A stretch of DNA of 64,000 nt, from assembly GCF_008729015.1 (NCBI RefSeq), contig NZ_RKSM01000001.1, positions 1,922,001-1,986,000 on the forward strand, written 5' to 3'. The notes beneath the pieces were generated by a model, which did not search any database, was not told the DNA's origin, and worked only from the letters and a program-made list of their open reading frames with translations. The translations under genes were made by a program, and so were the position numbers. Positions 4,774-64,000 of this stretch are shown here, piece after piece. Numbering within the stretch: position 1 is the stretch's first letter; each line of letters opens with the position of its first letter. Source of the stretch: Haloarcula sp. CBA1129 (GTDB lineage: Archaea > Halobacteriota > Halobacteria > Halobacteriales > Haloarculaceae).

Positions 4774-5610
4774 TCAGTCCTCGTCTTCGATGGTCGCACC
4801 GGGTGGGTAGATGGCACAGACAGCAGCGTCGTACCCCGCATCGGAGAGGCCAGTCCCGAGCGCGAACACCGTTTCGCCGAGCATCGCCATCGCGGCGTCT
4901 CCGCCGGCTTCGGTCACGTCGTCGATGACTCCTTTCACCTCCGGCGTCAGCAGGTCCGCCTCACGGGAGAACTGCCGGGAGGCCTGCACGAACGTCGATA
5001 GTTTCGGCTCCTTCACGACGGTTGAGAGTGCGCGCTCGCCGGCAGCCGTCAGCGTCTCCGTATCGCCGCCGACCACGTCCGCTGTCGATAGCTCACCGAG
5101 CGTGGTGTACTCGATGCGGCTGCGGGCCGGGATGGCATCGAGATAATTGAACTGCGGCCCGCCGGGTTCAAGACGGAGCGGGACGCCGCCGCGGGCCTGC
5201 GCGACAACGTCGCCGAGGCCTGAGCCGGACTGAACCTCTGCGCCGTGGGCGATGGTCACCAGTTCGTTGTACGAGAGTCCGTGGCCGAAGACGGCGTTAG
5301 CCGCCAGCGCAGTGCCGAGCGCCAGCCCACCGGAGACGCCGAAGCCGGACCCAAGCGGGAGCGGCGTTTCGGCGGTGACAGTCGCTGTGGTTCGCAACGC
5401 GTCCAGCACTCGCTCGACGGCTTCCACCTCAATCGGCTCGTCGTTCAGCGTTATCTCGGTTTCAGCCCCGCGGCTGACAGTGACGGCGACGCCGTCAGAC
5501 AGGGCCAGCCCGCCCCCGCGGGAGCCGGTCTCGACCGGGTCCTCGCCCCGGTCAACGGTAAAAAAGCCCGTGATGTGGCCGGGAACGAACGCATGTGCTT
5601 CGTCGCTCAT
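4774..5610 (-). CDS. Pantoate kinase (archaeal GHMP kinase of CoA biosynthesis)
   Basis: A 278-residue GHMP-superfamily kinase. The N-terminus has FVPGHITGFF (residues 8-17) and the ATP-binding loop is PLPLGSGFGVSGGLALG (83-99). Archaeal pantoate kinase phosphorylates pantoate; phosphopantothenate synthetase then makes 4'-phosphopantothenate, replacing the bacterial PanC/PanK steps. The substrate is inferred from similarity to the archaeal PoK group rather than from a diagnostic residue. The start MSDEAHAFVPGH gives the usual short N-terminus. Confidence 0.82.
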   Translation of the reverse strand: MSDEAHAFVPGHITGFFTVDRGEDPVETGSRGGGLALSDGVAVTVSRGAETEITLNDEPIEVEAVERVLDALRTTATVTAETPLPLGSGFGVSGGLALGTALAANAVFGHGLSYNELVTIAHGAEVQSGSGLGDVVAQARGGVPLRLEPGGPQFNYLDAIPARSRIEYTTLGELSTADVVGGDTETLTAAGERALSTVVKEPKLSTFVQASRQFSREADLLTPEVKGVIDDVTEAGGDAAMAMLGETVFALGTGLSDAGYDAAVCAIYPPGATIEDED

Positions 5611-5763
5611 TGCCTCTCCGTGGGACCCGGCGGCGTTAAGGATTGGTGGTCGGTCCTTCCGTTCGGATTGGCTTCCAGACGGCTCGCTAGAGTGTCAGGA
5701 GGGCGACAGGCGGTTCCCCGACCCGTAGTTTGATGTGCGTTTACGGCGGATGACTGTGCAAAC

Positions 5764-54457: not shown

Positions 54458-55144
54458 ATGGGTGACCTGTCGCGGCGCGGCTTCGGGGCCTCGATTCTCG
54501 CCGCGCTCTCCGCCGGCTGTCTCGGGAGTCGACCTGAACAGGAAGCCGAGACGACACCAGTCCCGGAACTGACAGCGTCACGACGGACTGTTGCAACTGA
54601 CCGTGTCGATACTACCTCGACGCCAGCGGCAGATGGTGCTGCTACTCCGGCGAACACTTCAACAGCACAGCGCGCCGAGGCGTCGCAGACGAACAACTCT
54701 ACGGAAACGTCGGCACGTCTGCAGGTCGAAACCGAGACACCGACGCCGACGCCCGAGCCGAACCACCGGTCGGTCGATACGACATTCCGGCTGGAGGAAA
54801 ACGAGTACGAAGATTTCACAGTTGACGCGACTGGCCAGACGACGCTTACTTACGACCTCATCGTTCGGCGTGGCCCGGCTGTGGATGTCATCCTGTTCAC
54901 CGAAGAAGAGTACCGGGCGTTCCAGAGCCGCTACCGGGCCCGGTACGCTGATGAGGTGTCGCGGTTCCACGAGACGAACATCCCCGACAACCGGATTACC
55001 ATCGGGCCGGGAACGTATCGACTCGTGGTGAACAACACCGACTGGTCGCGTGCCGTTCCGTCACCGAGTGAACCGTACGACAGTCTCGAAGGCGAATGCA
55101 TGGTCGATTTCTCGTTTAGTACGGAACCGGCGACCAGCGAGTAG
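54458..55144 (+). CDS. Tat-type lipoprotein of unknown function
   Basis: A 228-residue protein starting MGDLSRRGFGASILAALSAG and then CLGS: a twin-arginine signal followed by a lipobox with Cys at about residue 21. A Thr/Ala/Ser-rich linker (about 25-105) leads to a beta-sandwich-like domain (RLEENEYEDFTVDATGQTTL, YRLVVNNTDWSRAVP). The mature protein is probably lipid-anchored on the cell surface. The globular part resembles a substrate-less binding or pre-peptidase-type fold, which I cannot name. Confidence 0.78.
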   Translation: MGDLSRRGFGASILAALSAGCLGSRPEQEAETTPVPELTASRRTVATDRVDTTSTPAADGAATPANTSTAQRAEASQTNNSTETSARLQVETETPTPTPEPNHRSVDTTFRLEENEYEDFTVDATGQTTLTYDLIVRRGPAVDVILFTEEEYRAFQSRYRARYADEVSRFHETNIPDNRITIGPGTYRLVVNNTDWSRAVPSPSEPYDSLEGECMVDFSFSTEPATSE

Positions 55145-58119: not shown

Positions 58120-58255
58120 GCTCTATGTCCCGCCTTGTCTCAAAAACCCCAGCAGTGGACCGATACCGCTCCGCAATCCCTAAACGCCGGTCGCGCCAAT
58201 CAGGACCCAATGGATTGGACGGAGAAATAGTTAAAATCACACCCATATTATGCCA

Positions 58256-58420
58256 CTACTCGTCATCATCAGTCACGAGATCGTTCCGGTCGATGTAGTC
58301 CTCAACAGATAATCGTATGAAGTCGCTGAGGTTCTGTACTCGTGGTTCGTTTTCCAGCGCCTGTTCCCATCTCTCTTTTTGCTCGTCGTCTATTCTGAGG
58401 CTGATCGTAGGACTGCTCAT
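58256..58420 (-). CDS. Ribbon-helix-helix DNA-binding protein
   Basis: A 54-residue protein: MSSPTISLRIDDEQKERWEQ, then ALENEPRVQNLSDFIRLSVE and DYIDRNDLVTDDDE. The strand TISLRID followed by two helices is the RHH fold; the basic/polar strand residues would contact DNA. It lies divergent from the plus-strand operon, and repeated CGTATAT motifs occupy the shared promoter region, so it is probably an autoregulator and operon repressor. Confidence 0.78.
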   Translation of the reverse strand: MSSPTISLRIDDEQKERWEQALENEPRVQNLSDFIRLSVEDYIDRNDLVTDDDE

Positions 58421-58444
58421 CGTATAGCGTGCGTATTAGTAGAG

Positions 58445-58510
58445 GCGTATATCTTATGACCGCTTTCTGGGTATCGAATGTATATACGCTGTGGGGTCAA
58501 AAGATATACG
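58445..58510. promoter_or_regulatory. Operator-like CGTATAT repeats between divergent promoters
   Basis: Three related sites: CGTATATCTT at 58446-58455, its inverted copy AAGATATACG at 58501-58510 (perfect 10-bp inverted repeat), and GTATATACGC at 58480-58489 between them. The first overlaps the TATA-like sequence about 27 nt before the RHH start (58420). The third lies just upstream of the CTATAGT element (58523-58529) that serves the plus-strand operon. The layout suits binding by the RHH protein. Confidence 0.6.
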
Positions 58511-58548
58511 TATGCTTCGGCACTATAGTACGGTAGAGGTTTTCCAGA

Positions 58549-58818
58549 TTGCCCGATAGCACCACCGAGGACGTAGAGGAGAAGGTGGAAGAGTTGGAGA
58601 ACAAAGTAGAACGGTTGGAGGATCGGACGAACGGGAAGAACCAGATCGAGATTAGCTCCCATGATCTGAGTGTTCAAGCCAGTAGCGAGGAGGCGAGTAT
58701 GGAGGAGTTGATGGATCTCTGTAGTGATGAGATGGATCGTATCTCGAAGCGTGCGCTCGTGGGAGAGTATCAGGAATTGGAGCGAGAAGGTCTCCACTCG
58801 CAGCTTTTCGGTGATTAA
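58549..58818 (+). CDS. Coiled-coil acidic protein, first gene of the element operon
   Basis: An 89-residue protein with TTG start: a long Glu/Lys heptad stretch (VEEKVEELENKVERLEDRTN), then a polar middle and a second helix (EELMDLCSDEMDRISKRALV). A TATA sequence at 58524-58527, about 25 nt upstream, puts the transcription start at the TTG, so it may be leaderless with an uncommon start codon. Coiled-coil scaffolds of this size are frequent in viruses and plasmids; no family recognised. Confidence 0.65.
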   Translation: MPDSTTEDVEEKVEELENKVERLEDRTNGKNQIEISSHDLSVQASSEEASMEELMDLCSDEMDRISKRALVGEYQELEREGLHSQLFGD

Positions 58819-58820
58819 CA

Positions 58821-59240
58821 ATGTTCGGGCTTAGAGACTCCGACGATACCCAAGAAGAAGAGGAAGATGAGTGTCTGAATCTGCCGATTCAGGTGACTAC
58901 GATGCTGATCGAGCGAGATGTGAAGGAGGCTAACGAGAACATCGATATACTCAATCACGAGTATGATTGGCAGGTCTACCGCCTCCCTGTTCCCGGTGAA
59001 GATCAAATCCCTACTCTGGGTCAGTTGAGGGAGATTGACGAGGATCTTCGTCGGTTGTACAACAAGGTCTCTGAACAGCGCCCGCTGGACACTACTGAAC
59101 GGCGTCGGATCATCCGTGCCCGTCAGTCCGTTCAGGAGTTGATCGACTTCTATCTCTATTTCGATCAGATCACTGAGCCTGTGGAAGAGTCGTCTGCTGG
59201 TTCTGACGACGAAGGAGGTGTTCCCAGTGCCTCGGTCTGA
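58821..59240 (+). CDS. Uncharacterised helical protein of the element
   Basis: A 139-residue protein with an acidic N-terminus (DSDDTQEEEEDECLNLPIQV), a helix with MLIERDVKEANENIDILNHE, then RLYNKVSEQRPLDTTERRRI and IDFYLYFDQITEPVEES. It starts 2 nt after the preceding gene. Predicted helical, no known motif. It overlaps the next gene. Confidence 0.65.
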   Translation: MFGLRDSDDTQEEEEDECLNLPIQVTTMLIERDVKEANENIDILNHEYDWQVYRLPVPGEDQIPTLGQLREIDEDLRRLYNKVSEQRPLDTTERRRIIRARQSVQELIDFYLYFDQITEPVEESSAGSDDEGGVPSASV

Positions 59241-59460
59241 TGCTATTCAGAACTTCAATGACGGGATTTCAGCATATCAGAACGTCCTCCACAGTGCTGG
59301 TGTCCATCTGAATCCTCTGACCAATCCCACTCGGGAAGCGATTGATGAGCGCATGAACCAGATCGAGCGAGCGAAAGAGAACACGACTCACCCGGAGAGG
59401 ATGCAGAAACTGAACAGGCTCAGGAACTACCTGCTGGAAATCAACTACGAAACCCAATGA
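59227..59460 (+). CDS. Small helical protein; GTG start set by a strong Shine-Dalgarno site
   Basis: A 77-residue protein (VPRSDAIQNFNDGISAYQNV ... LRNYLLEINYETQ). GGAGGTG at 59214-59220 sits 6 nt before the GTG at 59227, the ideal spacing, so I prefer this start to the GTG at 59218 that lies inside the Shine-Dalgarno sequence. Two predicted helices with basic residues (RMNQIERAKEN). Function unknown. The stop overlaps the next ATG. Confidence 0.62.
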   Translation: MPRSDAIQNFNDGISAYQNVLHSAGVHLNPLTNPTREAIDERMNQIERAKENTTHPERMQKLNRLRNYLLEINYETQ

Positions 59461-59930
59461 ACCGCCGAAATTACCTCAAGTCGATGGCCGCTGTACCGTT
59501 CACTCCTACCCTCGTCCCTGAGTTTGGTAAGAACGAGCCTGATTCCAAGGAAGGGATGAGCGGTGTGTGGAAGCGCCGAGTTGACGAGGGCATAGTAATC
59601 ACCACAGAAGGAGAGAAAGAGTATCAGACGTACACTGAATGGCGTCGAGCAGCTGCTTCTGAGGCTCGGCAGTCCAGTCATAATCTGATTGCGACCCTAT
59701 TCGATTTCGAATTGATTTCGATTCAGACGGACGAAGACAGGTGGCGCAGCCATTGGGCGCACGATTGCGGTCTTGAAGCTACTATTCGTGAGGATACGAC
59801 TGAAGAAGTGGGATACGAGATGGTCGTTACTCACGTAGCTGAAAAGTGGGAAGAACACCGGCACTACGCTTCTGACAGCCAGATTGCTATCGCTAATAAG
59901 GCGATGCAGGAGCGTGACGAGTATCTATGA
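59457..59930 (+). CDS. Element protein with twin-arginine-like N-terminus, paralogue 1
   Basis: A 157-residue protein starting MNRRNYLKSMAAVPFTPTLV and then PEFGKNEP. The Arg-Arg, Leu/Lys and following hydrophobic stretch resemble a Tat signal, though the hydrophobic part is short. The mature part is polar with HDCGLEATIRED and EMVVTHVAEKWEEH. It shares the RR-x-(Y/F)-x-K/S-(S/A)-x-A-x-(L/V)-P start and FGKNEP with the next gene. ATGA overlap with the preceding gene. Function unknown. Confidence 0.7.
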   Translation: MNRRNYLKSMAAVPFTPTLVPEFGKNEPDSKEGMSGVWKRRVDEGIVITTEGEKEYQTYTEWRRAAASEARQSSHNLIATLFDFELISIQTDEDRWRSHWAHDCGLEATIREDTTEEVGYEMVVTHVAEKWEEHRHYASDSQIAIANKAMQERDEYL

Positions 59931-60457
59931 ATATGGAACGAAGGGAATTCACCAAAGCAGTTGCATCGCTCCCGGTCGCCCCTTCAGTACCGAGTTTTGG
60001 TAAGAACGAACCTGAAAAAGACTCTCGAACCCACGGTGAAGAGGATGAATTCTGGGAGATCTCTTCGGCGTGGTTTCAGAAGCACGATCATGGCGATCTG
60101 ACTCTCGTGAAGAATGGCGAGGTCGAACACCGATGGAAGTATGAAGACTACGAGATGTGGCGAAAGGCTACTCTCCTCAACTCTCGTTTCGTCGCTGACA
60201 GTGGAAACCAGCAGACGGAGTATGTCGCTGACCTGTTTTCGATGAATATCCACGAGATCTACGTCGATCCTCCGTATTTCTCGGTTACATTCCGTGGAGA
60301 ATCCAGCGAGGCCCATATCCAGCAAGGCAAGTATTCCGAGGATGAGTATGTCTATTCCGTAGAGAAGCACGATGATGAAGCTCTTCGGGGCGTCGATGGT
60401 GGTGCGGATTCGATAGAAGAAGTGATCTCCGAGGTTGGTGAATTCATCCGTGACTGA
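59927..60457 (+). CDS. Element protein with twin-arginine-like N-terminus, paralogue 2
   Basis: A 176-residue protein starting MNMERREFTKAVASLPVAPS then VPSFGKNEPEK. Compared with the preceding gene the first 35 residues are clearly related, including FGKNEP, while the rest differs (DLTLVKNGEVEHRWKYEDYE, YFSVTFRGESSEAHIQQGKY). ATGA overlap with the preceding gene. An ATG two codons later (MERR) is an alternative start. Likely exported if the N-terminus works as a Tat signal; inference. Confidence 0.7.
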   Translation: MNMERREFTKAVASLPVAPSVPSFGKNEPEKDSRTHGEEDEFWEISSAWFQKHDHGDLTLVKNGEVEHRWKYEDYEMWRKATLLNSRFVADSGNQQTEYVADLFSMNIHEIYVDPPYFSVTFRGESSEAHIQQGKYSEDEYVYSVEKHDDEALRGVDGGADSIEEVISEVGEFIRD

Positions 60458-60713
60458 ATCGTTGGTCAACGAATACCAGATGTGGACTTGTGGTGAGTAT
60501 CGAGTAGTTGTCGGTCTCCGTCACGGAATCGCTTTATTCGCCCGCTGCCCGTGTCCTAAGAGCAATCTGAGTGAAGAAATAGAAGTCAACGAGTGGGGCT
60601 ACAAAACGTGGTCTTGGGAGTCGTCGTACTGTGTTCACACAGTAACTGTGCTGGCTCACTACTACGCTGAACATGCGAGAAAAGACCTTGAAACGGAGCG
60701 GATCAATGCGTAG
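60450..60713 (+). CDS. SWIM-type zinc-finger protein
   Basis: An 87-residue protein, GTG start overlapping the preceding stop by 8 nt. The pattern ARCPCPKSN ... SSYCVHTVTVLAHYY gives C-x-C, a 24-residue gap, then C-x-H, the SWIM zinc-finger signature. SWIM domains bind DNA or proteins and are common in archaeal mobile elements and recombination-related proteins. Start chosen at 60450 because upstream codons lie within the preceding gene. Confidence 0.65.
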   Translation: MTESLVNEYQMWTCGEYRVVVGLRHGIALFARCPCPKSNLSEEIEVNEWGYKTWSWESSYCVHTVTVLAHYYAEHARKDLETERINA

Positions 60714-61083
60714 GCGTAGCTACCTCTCTTCAGTCGCTTCGCTGCCTCTGGTTCCAGTTTTATCTAATCTGACCACGAACCGGAATCTCATAGAGACTCG
60801 GAAAATGTGCCCGCCTGCACGCAACCACGATCAATTCATTTCTACTGATTACTGGTACACTATCAATTCGAACGGGCATTCAGAGCGCACCTCCGATGAA
60901 AATGAAGTAGATCGTGTAGTGTATGTCGCCATCAGAAAAGAGTCGTCTGTAGATGCTACAGAGCTACTCCCGCCTGTAGAATTCGATCACTTGGAATACG
61001 ACGTGTACTTCAACTTGATCACAGAGGAGGATAGACTTCTGGTCGCACAACGGGGTCTCGTGAGTCCGTCTGTTGTCGATTAG
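60706..61083 (+). CDS. Element protein with twin-arginine-like N-terminus, paralogue 3
   Basis: A 125-residue protein starting MRRRSYLSSVASLPLVPVLS. The first 20 residues resemble paralogues 1 and 2 (RR-x-(Y/F)-x-x-x-(A/V)-A-S-L-P), but the FGKNEP segment is replaced by NLTTNRN. The remainder (YDVYFNLITEEDRLLVAQRG) is different again. GGAG about 7 nt before the ATG at 60706 supports the start, which overlaps the SWIM gene by 8 nt. Last gene of the operon. Confidence 0.65.
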   Translation: MRRRSYLSSVASLPLVPVLSNLTTNRNLIETRKMCPPARNHDQFISTDYWYTINSNGHSERTSDENEVDRVVYVAIRKESSVDATELLPPVEFDHLEYDVYFNLITEEDRLLVAQRGLVSPSVVD

Positions 61084-61110
61084 TCTTTGTCTCGTTCTAC
61101 ATCAACAGAT

Positions 61111-61266
61111 TCAGTCATAATCTTCTACCACCTCTTCTACATCCTCAGCAGAGAAGTCGCCTTCTAAGCGTGCTATTTCTCCGGCTTCTTCGTGATGTAT
61201 TACCAGTACGTCACCCTCGTTAGATACGATGAAAGACGTATCTTCGATAATTTCCATATTGTTCAT
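61111..61266 (-). CDS. Small acidic protein of the element
   Basis: A 51-residue protein: MNNMEIIEDTSFIVSNEGDV, LVIHHEEAGEIARLEGDFSA and EDVEEVVEDYD. The alternating strand-like N-terminus and acidic C-terminal helix suggest a folded small protein. It is on the minus strand between the plus-strand operon and the integrase, 45 nt downstream of the integrase stop, so it may be the tail of the integrase operon. Confidence 0.55.
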   Translation of the reverse strand: MNNMEIIEDTSFIVSNEGDVLVIHHEEAGEIARLEGDFSAEDVEEVVEDYD

Positions 61267-61311
61267 AGCTTGTCAAATACAACGTTAGAATAGAGTAAAG
61301 GAGTTAGCCCG

Positions 61312-61929
61312 CTACCGTTCTTGGTAGTGTTCATAGATCCGTTCCGTTGTTGCAATTGAACGGTGTCGGAGTCGGTTCCGAACGTCAATCAATCGAGTAT
61401 CAGGATCTTGGAGCATGTATGAGGCGAGGCTGTGCCTGAGTGCGTGAGGGTGCATCTCTGATGGGTCTGCTGGCTCTCCATCCGAACGTCGAGGAGATAC
61501 GTCGGCTTCCACGGCAAGCCTTCTAATAACGTTCCTGATGGATTCTGTAGTCATCTGTTCTGACTGCCTCGATGGGAATACATATTCACTATCCTGAGCC
61601 TGCCACCAGTCGCTGTTGAAGTACCTCTTGAGCAGTCGTTCGGTTCCGAATAGGCCGTAGGGATCGATCTCCATACGAGCAGAACTCGGAGAGGCGTCTG
61701 TTGGGTACTTCTTCTGGATATCAGCTGGAAGGAGTAGGTGTCCTTCATCGAACCGGAAGTGACTGCGCTTCAGCTGATTCAGTTCTCCAACTCGAAGCCC
61801 AAAGTCAGATGCTGCAACGACCAGTACTTCGTTTCGGTCAGCGAGGTTTCCTCCGATATCGTGGGCGGCGTCTCTCATCTGGTCGATTTGATCGACTGTG
61901 ACTCGTCGGTGGATTGTTTGCTCGCTCAT
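61312..61929 (-). CDS. int: Tyrosine recombinase (integrase), catalytic-domain type
   Basis: A 205-residue short integrase. Catalytic residues by position: Arg46 (DFGLRVGEL), His162-x-x-Arg165 (HPHALRHSLASYM), His189 (RLRHRS) and Tyr199 (TTERIYEHY). A core-binding domain is mostly absent, as in several short haloarchaeal integrases. It is the last gene of the minus-strand operon, its ATG overlapping the preceding stop (ATGA). It would integrate the element by site-specific recombination; the att site was not found. Confidence 0.85.
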   Translation of the reverse strand: MSEQTIHRRVTVDQIDQMRDAAHDIGGNLADRNEVLVVAASDFGLRVGELNQLKRSHFRFDEGHLLLPADIQKKYPTDASPSSARMEIDPYGLFGTERLLKRYFNSDWWQAQDSEYVFPSRQSEQMTTESIRNVIRRLAVEADVSPRRSDGEPADPSEMHPHALRHSLASYMLQDPDTRLIDVRNRLRHRSIATTERIYEHYQER

Positions 61930-62195
61930 ATTCTTCTATCACCCCATCTTTCTCGACCTCTGTATACAATATATGAGAGAACGATTCCGTACACGAACCC
62001 GACGTATAGTGGATCTGTAAGCGTGTATGCGAACCTGTGCGCTCCCATCAGAATATCTGGTATCGTCGCTAATATTCTGGAAAGCACCCATACTATTCCA
62101 CCACCAACGACTATCGTACCTGCTATAATGATCAGTACGCCAAATCCTGCAATCAAATAGTCTACCCAGTCTTCTAACTCAGCGTCTTCACTCAT
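61926..62195 (-). CDS. Small membrane protein of the element
   Basis: An 89-residue protein, MSEDAELEDWVDYLIAGFGV followed by two hydrophobic stretches (LIIIAGTIVVGGGIVWVLSR and VGFVYGIVLSYIVYRG). The ATG at 62195 overlaps the upstream gene by 8 nt, and its stop overlaps the integrase ATG, fixing it in the operon. Function unknown. Confidence 0.62.
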   Translation of the reverse strand: MSEDAELEDWVDYLIAGFGVLIIIAGTIVVGGGIVWVLSRILATIPDILMGAHRFAYTLTDPLYVGFVYGIVLSYIVYRGRERWGDRRI

Positions 62196-62337
62196 CTCGA
62201 TCACGAGCCTGTCGGCTCTTTCGGTCGTTCTCATCGTCTTCGTCGTCCTCGCCGCTGTTCTTAGCAGCAGAGATCAGGAAGGCAGCGATGAATAGGCCAC
62301 CAAGTATGACCTTTAGAAGTGGATATAGCTCGATCAT
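62188..62337 (-). CDS. Tiny single-TM protein of the element
   Basis: A 49-residue protein: MIELYPLLKVILGGLFIAAF then LISAAKN, and a charged tail (SGEDDEDDENDRKSRQARDR). One TM segment with an acidic/basic cytoplasmic tail. A strong GGAGGTGA Shine-Dalgarno site lies just upstream of the ATG, and start and stop overlap neighbouring genes. Confidence 0.58.
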   Translation of the reverse strand: MIELYPLLKVILGGLFIAAFLISAAKNSGEDDEDDENDRKSRQARDRDE

Positions 62338-62489
62338 GAGCCATCACCTCCAGACTCGTCAACCTCTACAACTCCAACTACTCCGGAGAGTTCTTTGTCT
62401 GCTTCAACACAGTCCTCGCAGGCATACTCGTATCGACCGTCCTCGAACAGGATGACGTAATCTTCCGATTGAGCGCAACGAAGAGTCAT
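62334..62489 (-). CDS. Tiny acidic protein with CxxC
   Basis: A 51-residue protein: MTLRCAQSEDYVILFEDGRY then EYACEDCVEADKELSG and an acidic tail. Three Cys, two as CEDC, suggest a minimal metal site. GGAGGTGA sits about 6 nt before the ATG. Both ends overlap neighbouring operon genes. Confidence 0.55.
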   Translation of the reverse strand: MTLRCAQSEDYVILFEDGRYEYACEDCVEADKELSGVVGVVEVDESGGDGS

Positions 62490-62785
62490 TCTGCATCACC
62501 TCCGTTCTGTATCGCTCGAATAGCATCCAATACGTGCGATTCTTGCTTGTATACGTAATATCCTATCCACAGTGAAGGGAAGATAGTCAAGTGGGCGATA
62601 ATGATAATCTCATACGTCTTCAGCGGATCTGGTTGTGTTGTCGTGTACCAGATAGCTCCTGCAACCATCCCTACTAAAATCACAACCCGAGCTGCGAATT
62701 CTCTAATTCCGTTTTTGATGTACTCTACTTGTTCGTCAGAATCGAGATCTCTGAAATCTCGTTCCTCAACACTTGTGACTTTCAT
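62486..62785 (-). CDS. Two-TM protein of the element
   Basis: A 99-residue protein with a charged N-terminus (MKVTSVEERDFRDLDSDEQV), two hydrophobic segments (AARVVILVGMVAGAIWYTTT and IIIIAHLTIFPSLWIGYYVY) and a short C-terminal helix (DAIRAIQNGGDAE). Strong GGAGGTGG Shine-Dalgarno site before the ATG. Stop overlaps the next ATG. Not recognised. Confidence 0.62.
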   Translation of the reverse strand: MKVTSVEERDFRDLDSDEQVEYIKNGIREFAARVVILVGMVAGAIWYTTTQPDPLKTYEIIIIAHLTIFPSLWIGYYVYKQESHVLDAIRAIQNGGDAE

Positions 62786-62976
62786 GCAGAACCACCTCCG
62801 AGGATTTGTAGGATGAGTAGAGTACCAACGATTGTACCAACTATTCTGACTATCTGAGGTAGATCAAAGTAGCCTGTAGTGAACCAGAGGACGCTGGCTA
62901 TGAATCCGATGAGGAGGAATGACCCTACGACGAGGAGCAACCGAGCAGGACCTTCTTGAGGTAATTCACCACTCAT
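62782..62976 (-). CDS. Two-TM small protein of the element
   Basis: A 64-residue protein (MSGELPQEGPARLLLVVGSF ...) with two hydrophobic segments separated by a short polar turn (TTGYFDLPQI). I chose the ATG at 62976, which has a GGTGA 5 nt upstream; a GTG at 62985 that overlaps the preceding stop (GTGA) is equally possible. Not recognised. Confidence 0.58.
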   Translation of the reverse strand: MSGELPQEGPARLLLVVGSFLLIGFIASVLWFTTGYFDLPQIVRIVGTIVGTLLILQILGGGSA

Positions 62977-62981
62977 TGTGA

Positions 62982-63188
62982 TCACCCACTCACCTTGCTG
63001 TAGACTCCGAGAATGATTGATATCCCGACGATACTGAATATGAGCTGTCCAGCTGGGTTCATCGCAAGATCAAACGGAATGACTCCAAATCCAGTCAATA
63101 TCCCAGCGATGACGCCCCCTACGATTTGACCGAAAAAGAGGATCAATATCCCCTTGAGTAGATTTTTGACTGCTCCAGTGGCGCTCAT
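62982..63188 (-). CDS. Two-TM small protein, possible virion membrane or coat protein
   Basis: A 68-residue very hydrophobic protein: VKNLLKGILILFFGQIVGGV then IAGILTGFGVIPF, a short Asp/Asn/Pro turn (DLAMNPAG), and a second segment QLIFSIVGISIILGVYS. Size and two-helix layout resemble small coat proteins of spindle-shaped archaeal viruses; this is shape-based and weak evidence. The ATG overlaps the preceding gene and has GGTGA upstream. Confidence 0.58.
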   Translation of the reverse strand: MSATGAVKNLLKGILILFFGQIVGGVIAGILTGFGVIPFDLAMNPAGQLIFSIVGISIILGVYSKVSG

Positions 63189-63319
63189 ACAGAATCACCG
63201 GCATCGTCGCCTCCTTTGCGAATCTCTCTGAGTTTCTGTACATCTACGTCTGATGCGTCGAATTCATCATCGAATACGATGATATCTTCTTCATCATATT
63301 CTGTATTGTTATTTGACAT
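63185..63319 (-). CDS. Tiny acidic protein, first gene of the integrase operon
   Basis: A 44-residue protein, MSNNNTEYDEEDIIVFDDEF then DASDVDVQKLREIRKGGDDA. First gene of the minus-strand operon that ends with the integrase. AT-rich promoter-like sequence (TTTACAT near 63336-63342) lies about 20 nt upstream. Function unknown. Confidence 0.55.
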   Translation of the reverse strand: MSNNNTEYDEEDIIVFDDEFDASDVDVQKLREIRKGGDDAGDSV

Positions 63320-63360
63320 AACAATATTATAATGTAAATGGTATGGTAAAAAACTTCTGC

Positions 63361-63465
63361 GAGTTTTGGAGTTTGCATATGAGTCCGATTTTTCCGCTCG
63401 AACCCTACCTATAGACCGCTCAAATCGGGTTGAGTTTTGGTTTCTGTTAGTAGACTCCAAAACTC
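63361..63465. repeat. Inverted and direct GAGTTTTGG repeats between divergent operons
   Basis: GAGTTTTGGAGT at 63361-63372 and its perfect inverted copy ACTCCAAAACTC at 63454-63465 enclose a third copy, GAGTTTTGG, at 63432-63440. The region is AT-rich and lies between the minus operon (start 63319) and the plus nuclease-like gene (start 63506). It is either a repressor operator array or part of a replication origin. Confidence 0.55.
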
Positions 63466-63505
63466 ACGAACACCTTTGGGGAGAAATTATAATATATATG
63501 ATAAG

Positions 63506-64000
63506 ATGGCGACAGACAACTCATCGTTCACTCTCGCAGTGGACGACGATCTACGAGAAAAGATGTATAGACACGTTCTGGGTGACGATTTCTCAGAGAA
63601 CGACGTTCGAGACGGTTTCTGTATCGAGTGGGATGACATAGGCCGACCGGAGGAAGAAGCAATCGGGAACGCCAAACAAGGATTCATCGCTGAAGCTGCT
63701 CTCTCCCAACTGTTCGAGCAGGCTGGAATCGAACATGAATGGGATGGGAGCGAAGGAGCAGATGATCTGGTTGTTCACGGGAAGACTATCGATGTGAAGA
63801 CACGAGCGAGCAAGTGTGAGTACAGAAATCTGATCAAGGACTACTGTATGAGCAATTCAGATACAGTCGATTTCTATTTCCTGTGCAACGTCCACTACCA
63901 TCCAGTAGATCGGAATCGAATTACTGCGGTTGAGTTCTTGGGCTACATCAGCAACGAGGAATTCGAAGAAGTGAGCCAGCCGGTCAAACTCTACGACCAC
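63506..64000 (+). CDS. PD-(D/E)XK-like nuclease (partial, runs off the window)
   Basis: At least 165 residues, open at the right edge. Key residues: Glu63 in GNAKQGFIAEAALSQL, Asp86-Asp87 in SEGADDLVV, and Asp96-x-Lys98 in TIDVKTRAS, the order and spacing of a PD-(D/E)XK nuclease core. The later part (VDFYFLCNVHYHPVDRNRIT) continues the fold. Such nucleases occur in viruses and restriction systems alike. TATA-like ATTATAATATATAT lies just upstream (63487-63500). Confidence 0.6.
   Translation, partial: MATDNSSFTLAVDDDLREKMYRHVLGDDFSENDVRDGFCIEWDDIGRPEEEAIGNAKQGFIAEAALSQLFEQAGIEHEWDGSEGADDLVVHGKTIDVKTRASKCEYRNLIKDYCMSNSDTVDFYFLCNVHYHPVDRNRITAVEFLGYISNEEFEEVSQPVKLYDH

Follow-up and report, generated by a model that had tools for sequence, protein, structure and literature searches.

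Introduction

Little is known about host-changing genes in archaeal proviruses. Among described systems, the locus analysed here is closest to the pleolipoviruses, the particles of which are membrane vesicles according to the account given in PMC7547991, and to the haloarchaeal proteins exported by the twin-arginine (Tat) route. The provirus-like element in the window (the whole 64 kb stretch of DNA that was analysed) shares with the Betapleolipovirus Halorubrum pleomorphic virus 10 (HRPV10, Pleolipoviridae, MG550111) a homologue of the spike VP4 and apparently the gene order spike-ORF-ORF-ATPase, but is about 24.8 kb long as against 9.3 kb. It encodes an integrase (PF00589), as integrating pleolipoviruses do, and, unlike HRPV10 and the integrase-bearing pleolipoviruses, it carries restriction-modification genes and an operon of proteins with Tat-type leaders.

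Haloarchaeal Tat substrates and lipoproteins of the TatFind/TatLipo class, as described in PMC2945643, have RR-x-[FY]-[LIVT] near the start followed by an uncharged h-region, with the lipobox Cys of the lipoproteins lying 12–21 residues past the second Arg; the same source includes an RR-to-KK test on haloarchaeal Tat lipoproteins. The three proteins of the operon, P1, P2 and P3, have the same kind of start, with leader words that are those of host SCO1 and solute-binding lipoproteins, whereas they lack the lipobox and their h-region is short and Pro-rich. A search of the open-access literature found nothing that joins archaeal viruses or proviruses, or pleolipoviruses, with twin-arginine signal peptides. 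The reading that we consider reasonably probable is that P1–P3 are Tat-exported provirus cargo, encoded in a slot after the marker gene ORF89 in which a conserved leader is swappable and the bodies behind it are replaceable by recombination.

The provirus carrying the operon

The left part of the element occupies positions 58167–64000 of the window and runs on to about C1:2004946 (L003:5946), the extent being that of an alignment with a related element in a genome (G055) of a different genus but the same family as the host of the window. The GC content is 0.47–0.52 inside the element and 0.62–0.65 on the host side, with a drop at window position 58200 (about 0.63 to 0.50) and a recovery near C1:2005000. 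The element, here called a putative pleolipovirus-like provirus, encodes a homologue of the HRPV10 spike VP4 (E 5e-21; PHROG 2231, E 4e-54), an AAA ATPase, a PKD protein and restriction and methylation genes. The ATPase (424 aa) occupies the position matching that of the pleolipovirus ATPase beside the spike block, and has no direct match in phage records or in HRPV10. Related elements include one with an HRPV10-like spike and ATPase (G356), one with an HRPV10-like ATPase (G285), both ATPases being homologues of HRPV10 ORF7, and one with a homologue of the ATPase of the window's element (G013); their hosts are presumably haloarchaea.

The run of genes containing P1–P3 begins with ORF89 (58549–58818, plus strand), a conserved gene that marks the module, followed by ORF139 (58821–59240, plus strand) and ORF80 (59218–59460, plus strand), which are both conserved in G055 (98 and 91 %, respectively) and in G356. 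Divergent from this run is a gene for a 54-aa protein (58256–58420, minus strand), which by eye looks like a ribbon-helix-helix (CopG-type) regulator, is 100 % identical in G055 and had no match in a Pfam search. On the other side, P1–P3 are followed by a 51-aa protein (61111–61266, minus strand; 90 % identical in G055) and the catalytic part of a tyrosine recombinase, the integrase (61312–61929, minus strand; PF00589, E 1.9e-20; PHROG integrase). P1–P3 thus lie at one edge of the provirus, on the integrase side.

No clear att repeat was found for the element, and a scan for sigma-70 promoters and terminators gave chance-level results. Attachment in a nearby pair of tRNA-Leu genes (TAA and TAG; L003:5308-5393 and 5526-5612, C1:2004308-2004612) was considered and rejected, as no repeat was found and both tRNAs lie inside the aligned element. 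This pair sits within about 409 bases that are absent at that point from the G055 element, with aligned sequence on both sides, and a DNA search of the genome found no near copy of it elsewhere. A gene that by eye is transposase-like (L003:5984-6811) lies directly at the element's right edge and may have deleted the right attachment site. The element also contains a GmrSD-type restriction gene (L002:8013-9758; PADLOC Orf5/HEC-06, E 5e-147), for which no match was found in the G055 element; G356, as judged by eye, has a similar gene (L026:3977-5722). An 843-aa protein (L003:1177-3708; 47 % identical in G055) by eye shows repeats of PKD-like units, has a membrane stretch at its C-terminus and is possibly a surface adhesin of the virus. 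The HRPV10 spike VP4 precursor (L014:1228-2808) starts with a twin-arginine-like leader; the leader of its homologue in the window's element is Sec-like by eye.

The operon and its relatives

Window positions 59457–61083 hold four overlapping plus-strand genes in the order P1 (59457–59930), P2 (59927–60457), a SWIM-like CxC...CxH protein (60450–60713) and P3 (60706–61083). The overlaps at the ORF80/P1, P1/P2, P2/SWIM and SWIM/P3 junctions amount to 4 to 8 bases each, so translation of the operon is probably coupled. A second ATG in P2, at 59933, places its RR at residues 3–4; P3 probably starts at 60706, where the ATG overlaps the stop of the SWIM-like gene, rather than at 60673. With these starts, the leaders (residues 1–27) correspond to 59457–59537, 59933–60013 and 60706–60786.

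The original prediction, made from the letters of the DNA, was correct in its description of the individual motifs. RR-x-(Y/F) is present at residues 3–6 of all three proteins, the predicted Pro-bounded hydrophobic patch corresponds to an uncharged, Pro-containing stretch of 13–20 residues that follows it in each, and FGKNEP is identical in P1 and P2, where the DNA is near-identical, with 19 of 24 bases the same (at most 16 in shuffles). The predicted SWIM protein also lies within the set, between P2 and P3; its C-P-C...C-V-H motif can be read in the sequence, and its match to Pfam SWIM (PF04434; E 0.011, 15.7 bits) is below the cut-off of 19.6. The view of all three as paralogues with strongly differing mature parts requires division. 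P1 and P2 (family I), 29 % identical overall, are homologous in both leader and body: past the leader, their alignment score of 59 compares with 33 ± 6 in shuffles and was reached by 2 of 500, and their counterparts in G055 score 74 against each other, a value attained by none of 500. P3 shares the leader type only (about 27 residues), and it is its body that is unrelated; after residue 30, its scores against P1 and P2 were reached by 277 and 475 of 500 shuffles, and its profile match to family I is limited to residues 1–27.

A search for further family members, as had been proposed, did find them. Profile A1 identified true relatives of P1/P2, all with RR-x-[FY], in 4 of 391 genomes (G000, that of the window, G055, G013 and G356), three of which have the tandem pair while G013 has a P2-type gene alone; the matches in four other genomes (E up to 0.1) were short and partial. 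With a wider profile (A2), clear relatives were still confined to 4 of 391 genomes, and many of the weaker matches (E 0.01–1) fell on the first 15–50 residues of other proteins. P3 had no match below E 0.01 in the remaining 193 of 194 genomes, and the SWIM-like protein was found in 1 of 145 genomes, again that of the window. In G055, G013 and G356, P3 and the SWIM-like gene are replaced by a convergent small gene with a similar C-terminal sequence, as seen by eye. P1 had no match in plasmid records or, like ORF89, among 50,697 phage records, isolated pleolipoviruses included; the same held for a family II protein (see below) in phage records and for an ORF89 homologue in plasmid records. Neither A1, A3 (the ORF89 profile), P2, the family II protein nor the spike gave a match in viral_contigs, nor did A1 in genome_contigs; candidates in these collections require short near-exact peptides, so distant relatives may escape, and the profile search of genomes yielded more relatives.

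An alternative is that P1–P3 belong to the virion or to vesicles that are released, as membrane-associated minor structural proteins, instead of being host-surface accessories. The pleolipovirus-like character of the element and the presence of a spike homologue are in keeping with such a role; we nevertheless regard it as unlikely, since P1–P3 are encoded at the end away from the spike block and on the opposite strand, their bodies differ between elements whose cores are related, and they have no match in PHROG or in phage records that include the isolated pleolipoviruses.

Tat-type leaders

All eight leaders of P1–P3 and five homologues combine RR-x-[FY] with an uncharged stretch of at least 13 residues (13–20 after the RR; best 13-mer Kyte-Doolittle value 1.04–1.85), and R3 and R4 are two of the seven invariant columns in family I. 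In the 64 kb window as a whole, five ORFs of 80 aa or more have Tat-like starts, and three of these are P1, P2 and P3, a cluster with a Poisson probability of 2e-5 when compared with the remainder of the window and of 2.5e-4 when compared with the host DNA rate (12 in 165 kb). Near-identical leaders occur in the host on two exported families, SCO1/SenC and solute-binding protein family 3, and a host SCO1 protein with a like leader (MNRRTFIKSTAAVPVGATAGC) matches Pfam TAT_signal. P1–P3 themselves match neither this model nor the NCBIfam Tat models at E up to 1. Their h-regions are short and Pro-rich, no clear cleavage site is seen (P1 has no good A-x-A site), and none of the three leaders contains a Cys that could form a lipobox. 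In AlphaFold models, residues 1–36 of P2 and 1–26 of a family II protein have pLDDT below 50 and lie outside the fold. Judged by these sequence features, P1–P3 are probably exported, and Tat export and cleavage proper would be the expected route. Just beyond the element, window positions 54458–55144 hold a host Tat lipoprotein-like gene (RRGFGASILAALSAGC) with no Pfam match.

The slot downstream of ORF89

Following up weak leader matches revealed further elements in which tandem RR proteins come after a homologue of ORF89. Profile A3 gave 21 matches (E up to 0.01), distributed over 20 of 391 genomes. Of these, 18 were kept, at which ORF89 marks the same edge; three (G160, G323 and G227; E 2e-4 to 5e-3) were dropped for long or broken frames. 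Tat-like starts were defined by a rule of our own, not TatFind: the ORF had to begin with ATG and be 80 aa or longer, with RR-x-hydrophobic among its first residues and an uncharged run of 13 residues or more. They were counted downstream on the same strand as ORF89 within 3.5 kb. At least one such start lies just downstream of ORF89 at 13 of the 18 loci, a total biased by the 7 loci that came from leader- or family-based searches; the rule finds none at the other five (G229, G332b, G173, G200 and G127). Overall, the 59,407 bases that follow ORF89 at these loci hold 28 genes with Tat-like starts and the 62,875 bases upstream hold 2, compared with 1 in 107,447 bases in the rest of five elements and 12 in 165,204 bases of host DNA, a rate that is inflated because some loci had been picked by leader matches. 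Of the 11 loci to which ORF89 was the only guide, two of which have stretches ending at contig ends (G396 and G182), 6 have Tat-like starts, with 9 genes in 34.9 kb downstream and 0 in 38.4 kb upstream; relative to the host rate, the Poisson probability is 0.0013, or 0.0039 if the near-duplicate G396 is left out.

Canonical lipobox leaders are found on 3 of the 28 slot genes. The cargo slot holds two large Tat lipoproteins of 493 and 443 aa (L026:8697-10178 and L106:8588-9919), which match each other faintly (hhalign E 0.006) and have no Pfam match. As operons of this kind are found again in integrated elements of related microbes, the slot looks like a docking place for proteins that are displayed or secreted by the host for the virus, and the region downstream of ORF89 would be a general cargo slot with a conserved leader.

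Leaders and bodies as a mosaic

The 28 slot proteins comprise families I (P1/P2), II, III, IV and V, singletons and the three lipobox proteins. At the same element position, this leader type precedes five or more body families, of which four or five are unrelated in sequence. When leaders are included, profiles of different families match at residues 1–27 (I–II, E 3e-7; I–P3, E 3e-6); without them, no pair among families I–V or P3 matches except II and V, the bodies of which match faintly (E 3e-5). At the DNA level, leaders on unrelated bodies agree at 39 of 45 positions (G049_1/G043_2), 38 of 45 (G285_3/G043_2) and 36 of 45 (G285_2/G285_4), compared with a mean of 19 (sd 5) of 45 over 286 pairs from different loci. 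As body identity in these pairs (0.31–0.35) is at background, leaders have at times been swapped between bodies. Within the window no swap is visible, the P1/P3 and P2/P3 leaders sharing 16 and 13 of 45 nucleotides (background). Since the leader is conserved and at times swapped between unrelated bodies, the exported body would be replaceable by recombination. The idea of an export-type leader joined to differing bodies in a mobile operon is supported by the body families in other elements and by the host exported families.

It could be argued that the N-termini are not export signals, and that the proteins are cytoplasmic, the RR leader serving in binding or in membrane association from inside. 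The lack of matches to Pfam and NCBIfam Tat models, the short, Pro-rich h-region and the unclear cleavage site would fit, but the retention of the leader in front of bodies that are unrelated, its presence in exported families of the host, and the occupation of the same slot by lipobox leaders, make this quite unlikely and favour exported cargo.

Divergence between related proviruses

Most of the larger genes are 81–98 % identical between the elements of the window and G055, with dN/dS of 0.03–0.2. P1, with 86 % identity and a dN/dS of 0.15, is under purifying selection, and positive selection on this gene was rejected. P2 is 55 % identical with saturated dS, and lies in a patch with the diverged integrase (65 %) that looks like the product of recombination. 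The other diverged genes encode small membrane proteins (51–73 %), a 148-aa ORF (36 %) and the 843-aa protein noted above. This pattern is one of mosaic replacement, and positive selection is not demonstrated; the rapid diversification originally proposed for the three proteins is not supported by the dN/dS of P1 or by the apparently recombined patch around P2.

Bodies behind the leaders

Structure prediction, as proposed, was applied to P2 (mediocre, with pLDDT 61 and pTM 0.45) and to a family II protein (better, with pLDDT 77.5 and pTM 0.72), each modelled from 7 rows. For P2, the best Foldseek E was 0.11 and the best VIA Z 7.4 (actin-capping protein), a level also obtained with unrelated models; for family II, there was no good match in the PDB (best E 0.063, best Z 5.5) or BFVD (best E 0.0018). 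Both models can be read as two sheet-plus-helix halves, and a common fold is not claimed for these bodies, between which no sequence relation was found. A sequence search of solved structures found nothing useful, and the bodies tested had no usable match in Pfam, NCBIfam, PHROG, PADLOC or structures.

Tis1 protects against the (p)ppApp synthetase Tas1. A toxin/immunity function was among those first suggested. That the operon encodes such a set, or a toxin-antitoxin set, in which some parts are exported and P2 is the immunity protein, is very unlikely: its sole basis is a match of P2 to Tis1_ImmP (PF24154) over 42 residues (E 0.002) that we reject at 18.6 bits against a cut-off of 27, P1 has no such match, no Tas1 was recognised among the neighbours, and PADLOC reports nothing for the operon.

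Conclusions

As provirus cargo, P1, P2 and P3 would be accessory proteins of a pleolipovirus-like provirus, made from one overlapping operon at its integrase-side edge; their leaders would be Tat signals without a lipobox, and the proteins would cross the cell membrane folded and act at or beyond the surface of the lysogen. Given this location at the provirus edge, beside the integrase and away from the spike block, together with export, our guess is that alteration of the host surface by the provirus is the likeliest role. The surface exclusion or adhesion originally suggested may apply, and the benefit might, as a tentative guess, be that competing viruses or vesicles are kept off the host surface. 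The broader proposal, that pleolipovirus-like proviruses maintain a dedicated, ORF89-marked slot with the Tat leader as a recombination handle, and that the swapped bodies provide lysogen-specific surface proteins that exclude rivals, is speculative and must be considered doubtful.

A marker gene combined with a leader offers a simple way to locate a whole set of exported proviral proteins that have no known relatives, and the ORF89-plus-leader rule makes it concretely testable whether the surface of archaeal lysogens is remodelled like that of bacterial ones. In bacterial prophages, the lysogenic-conversion and superinfection-exclusion genes known as morons are accessory genes for exported proteins at the prophage edge, outside the structural block, as are those for the presumably exported P1–P3, and we know of no sequence relation between the two. 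Unlike the morons, the archaeal slot has a leader that is common to several families and swappable. If the broader proposal is true, the slot would correspond in archaea to the lysogenic conversion brought about by prophages, the signal peptide being the point of exchange.
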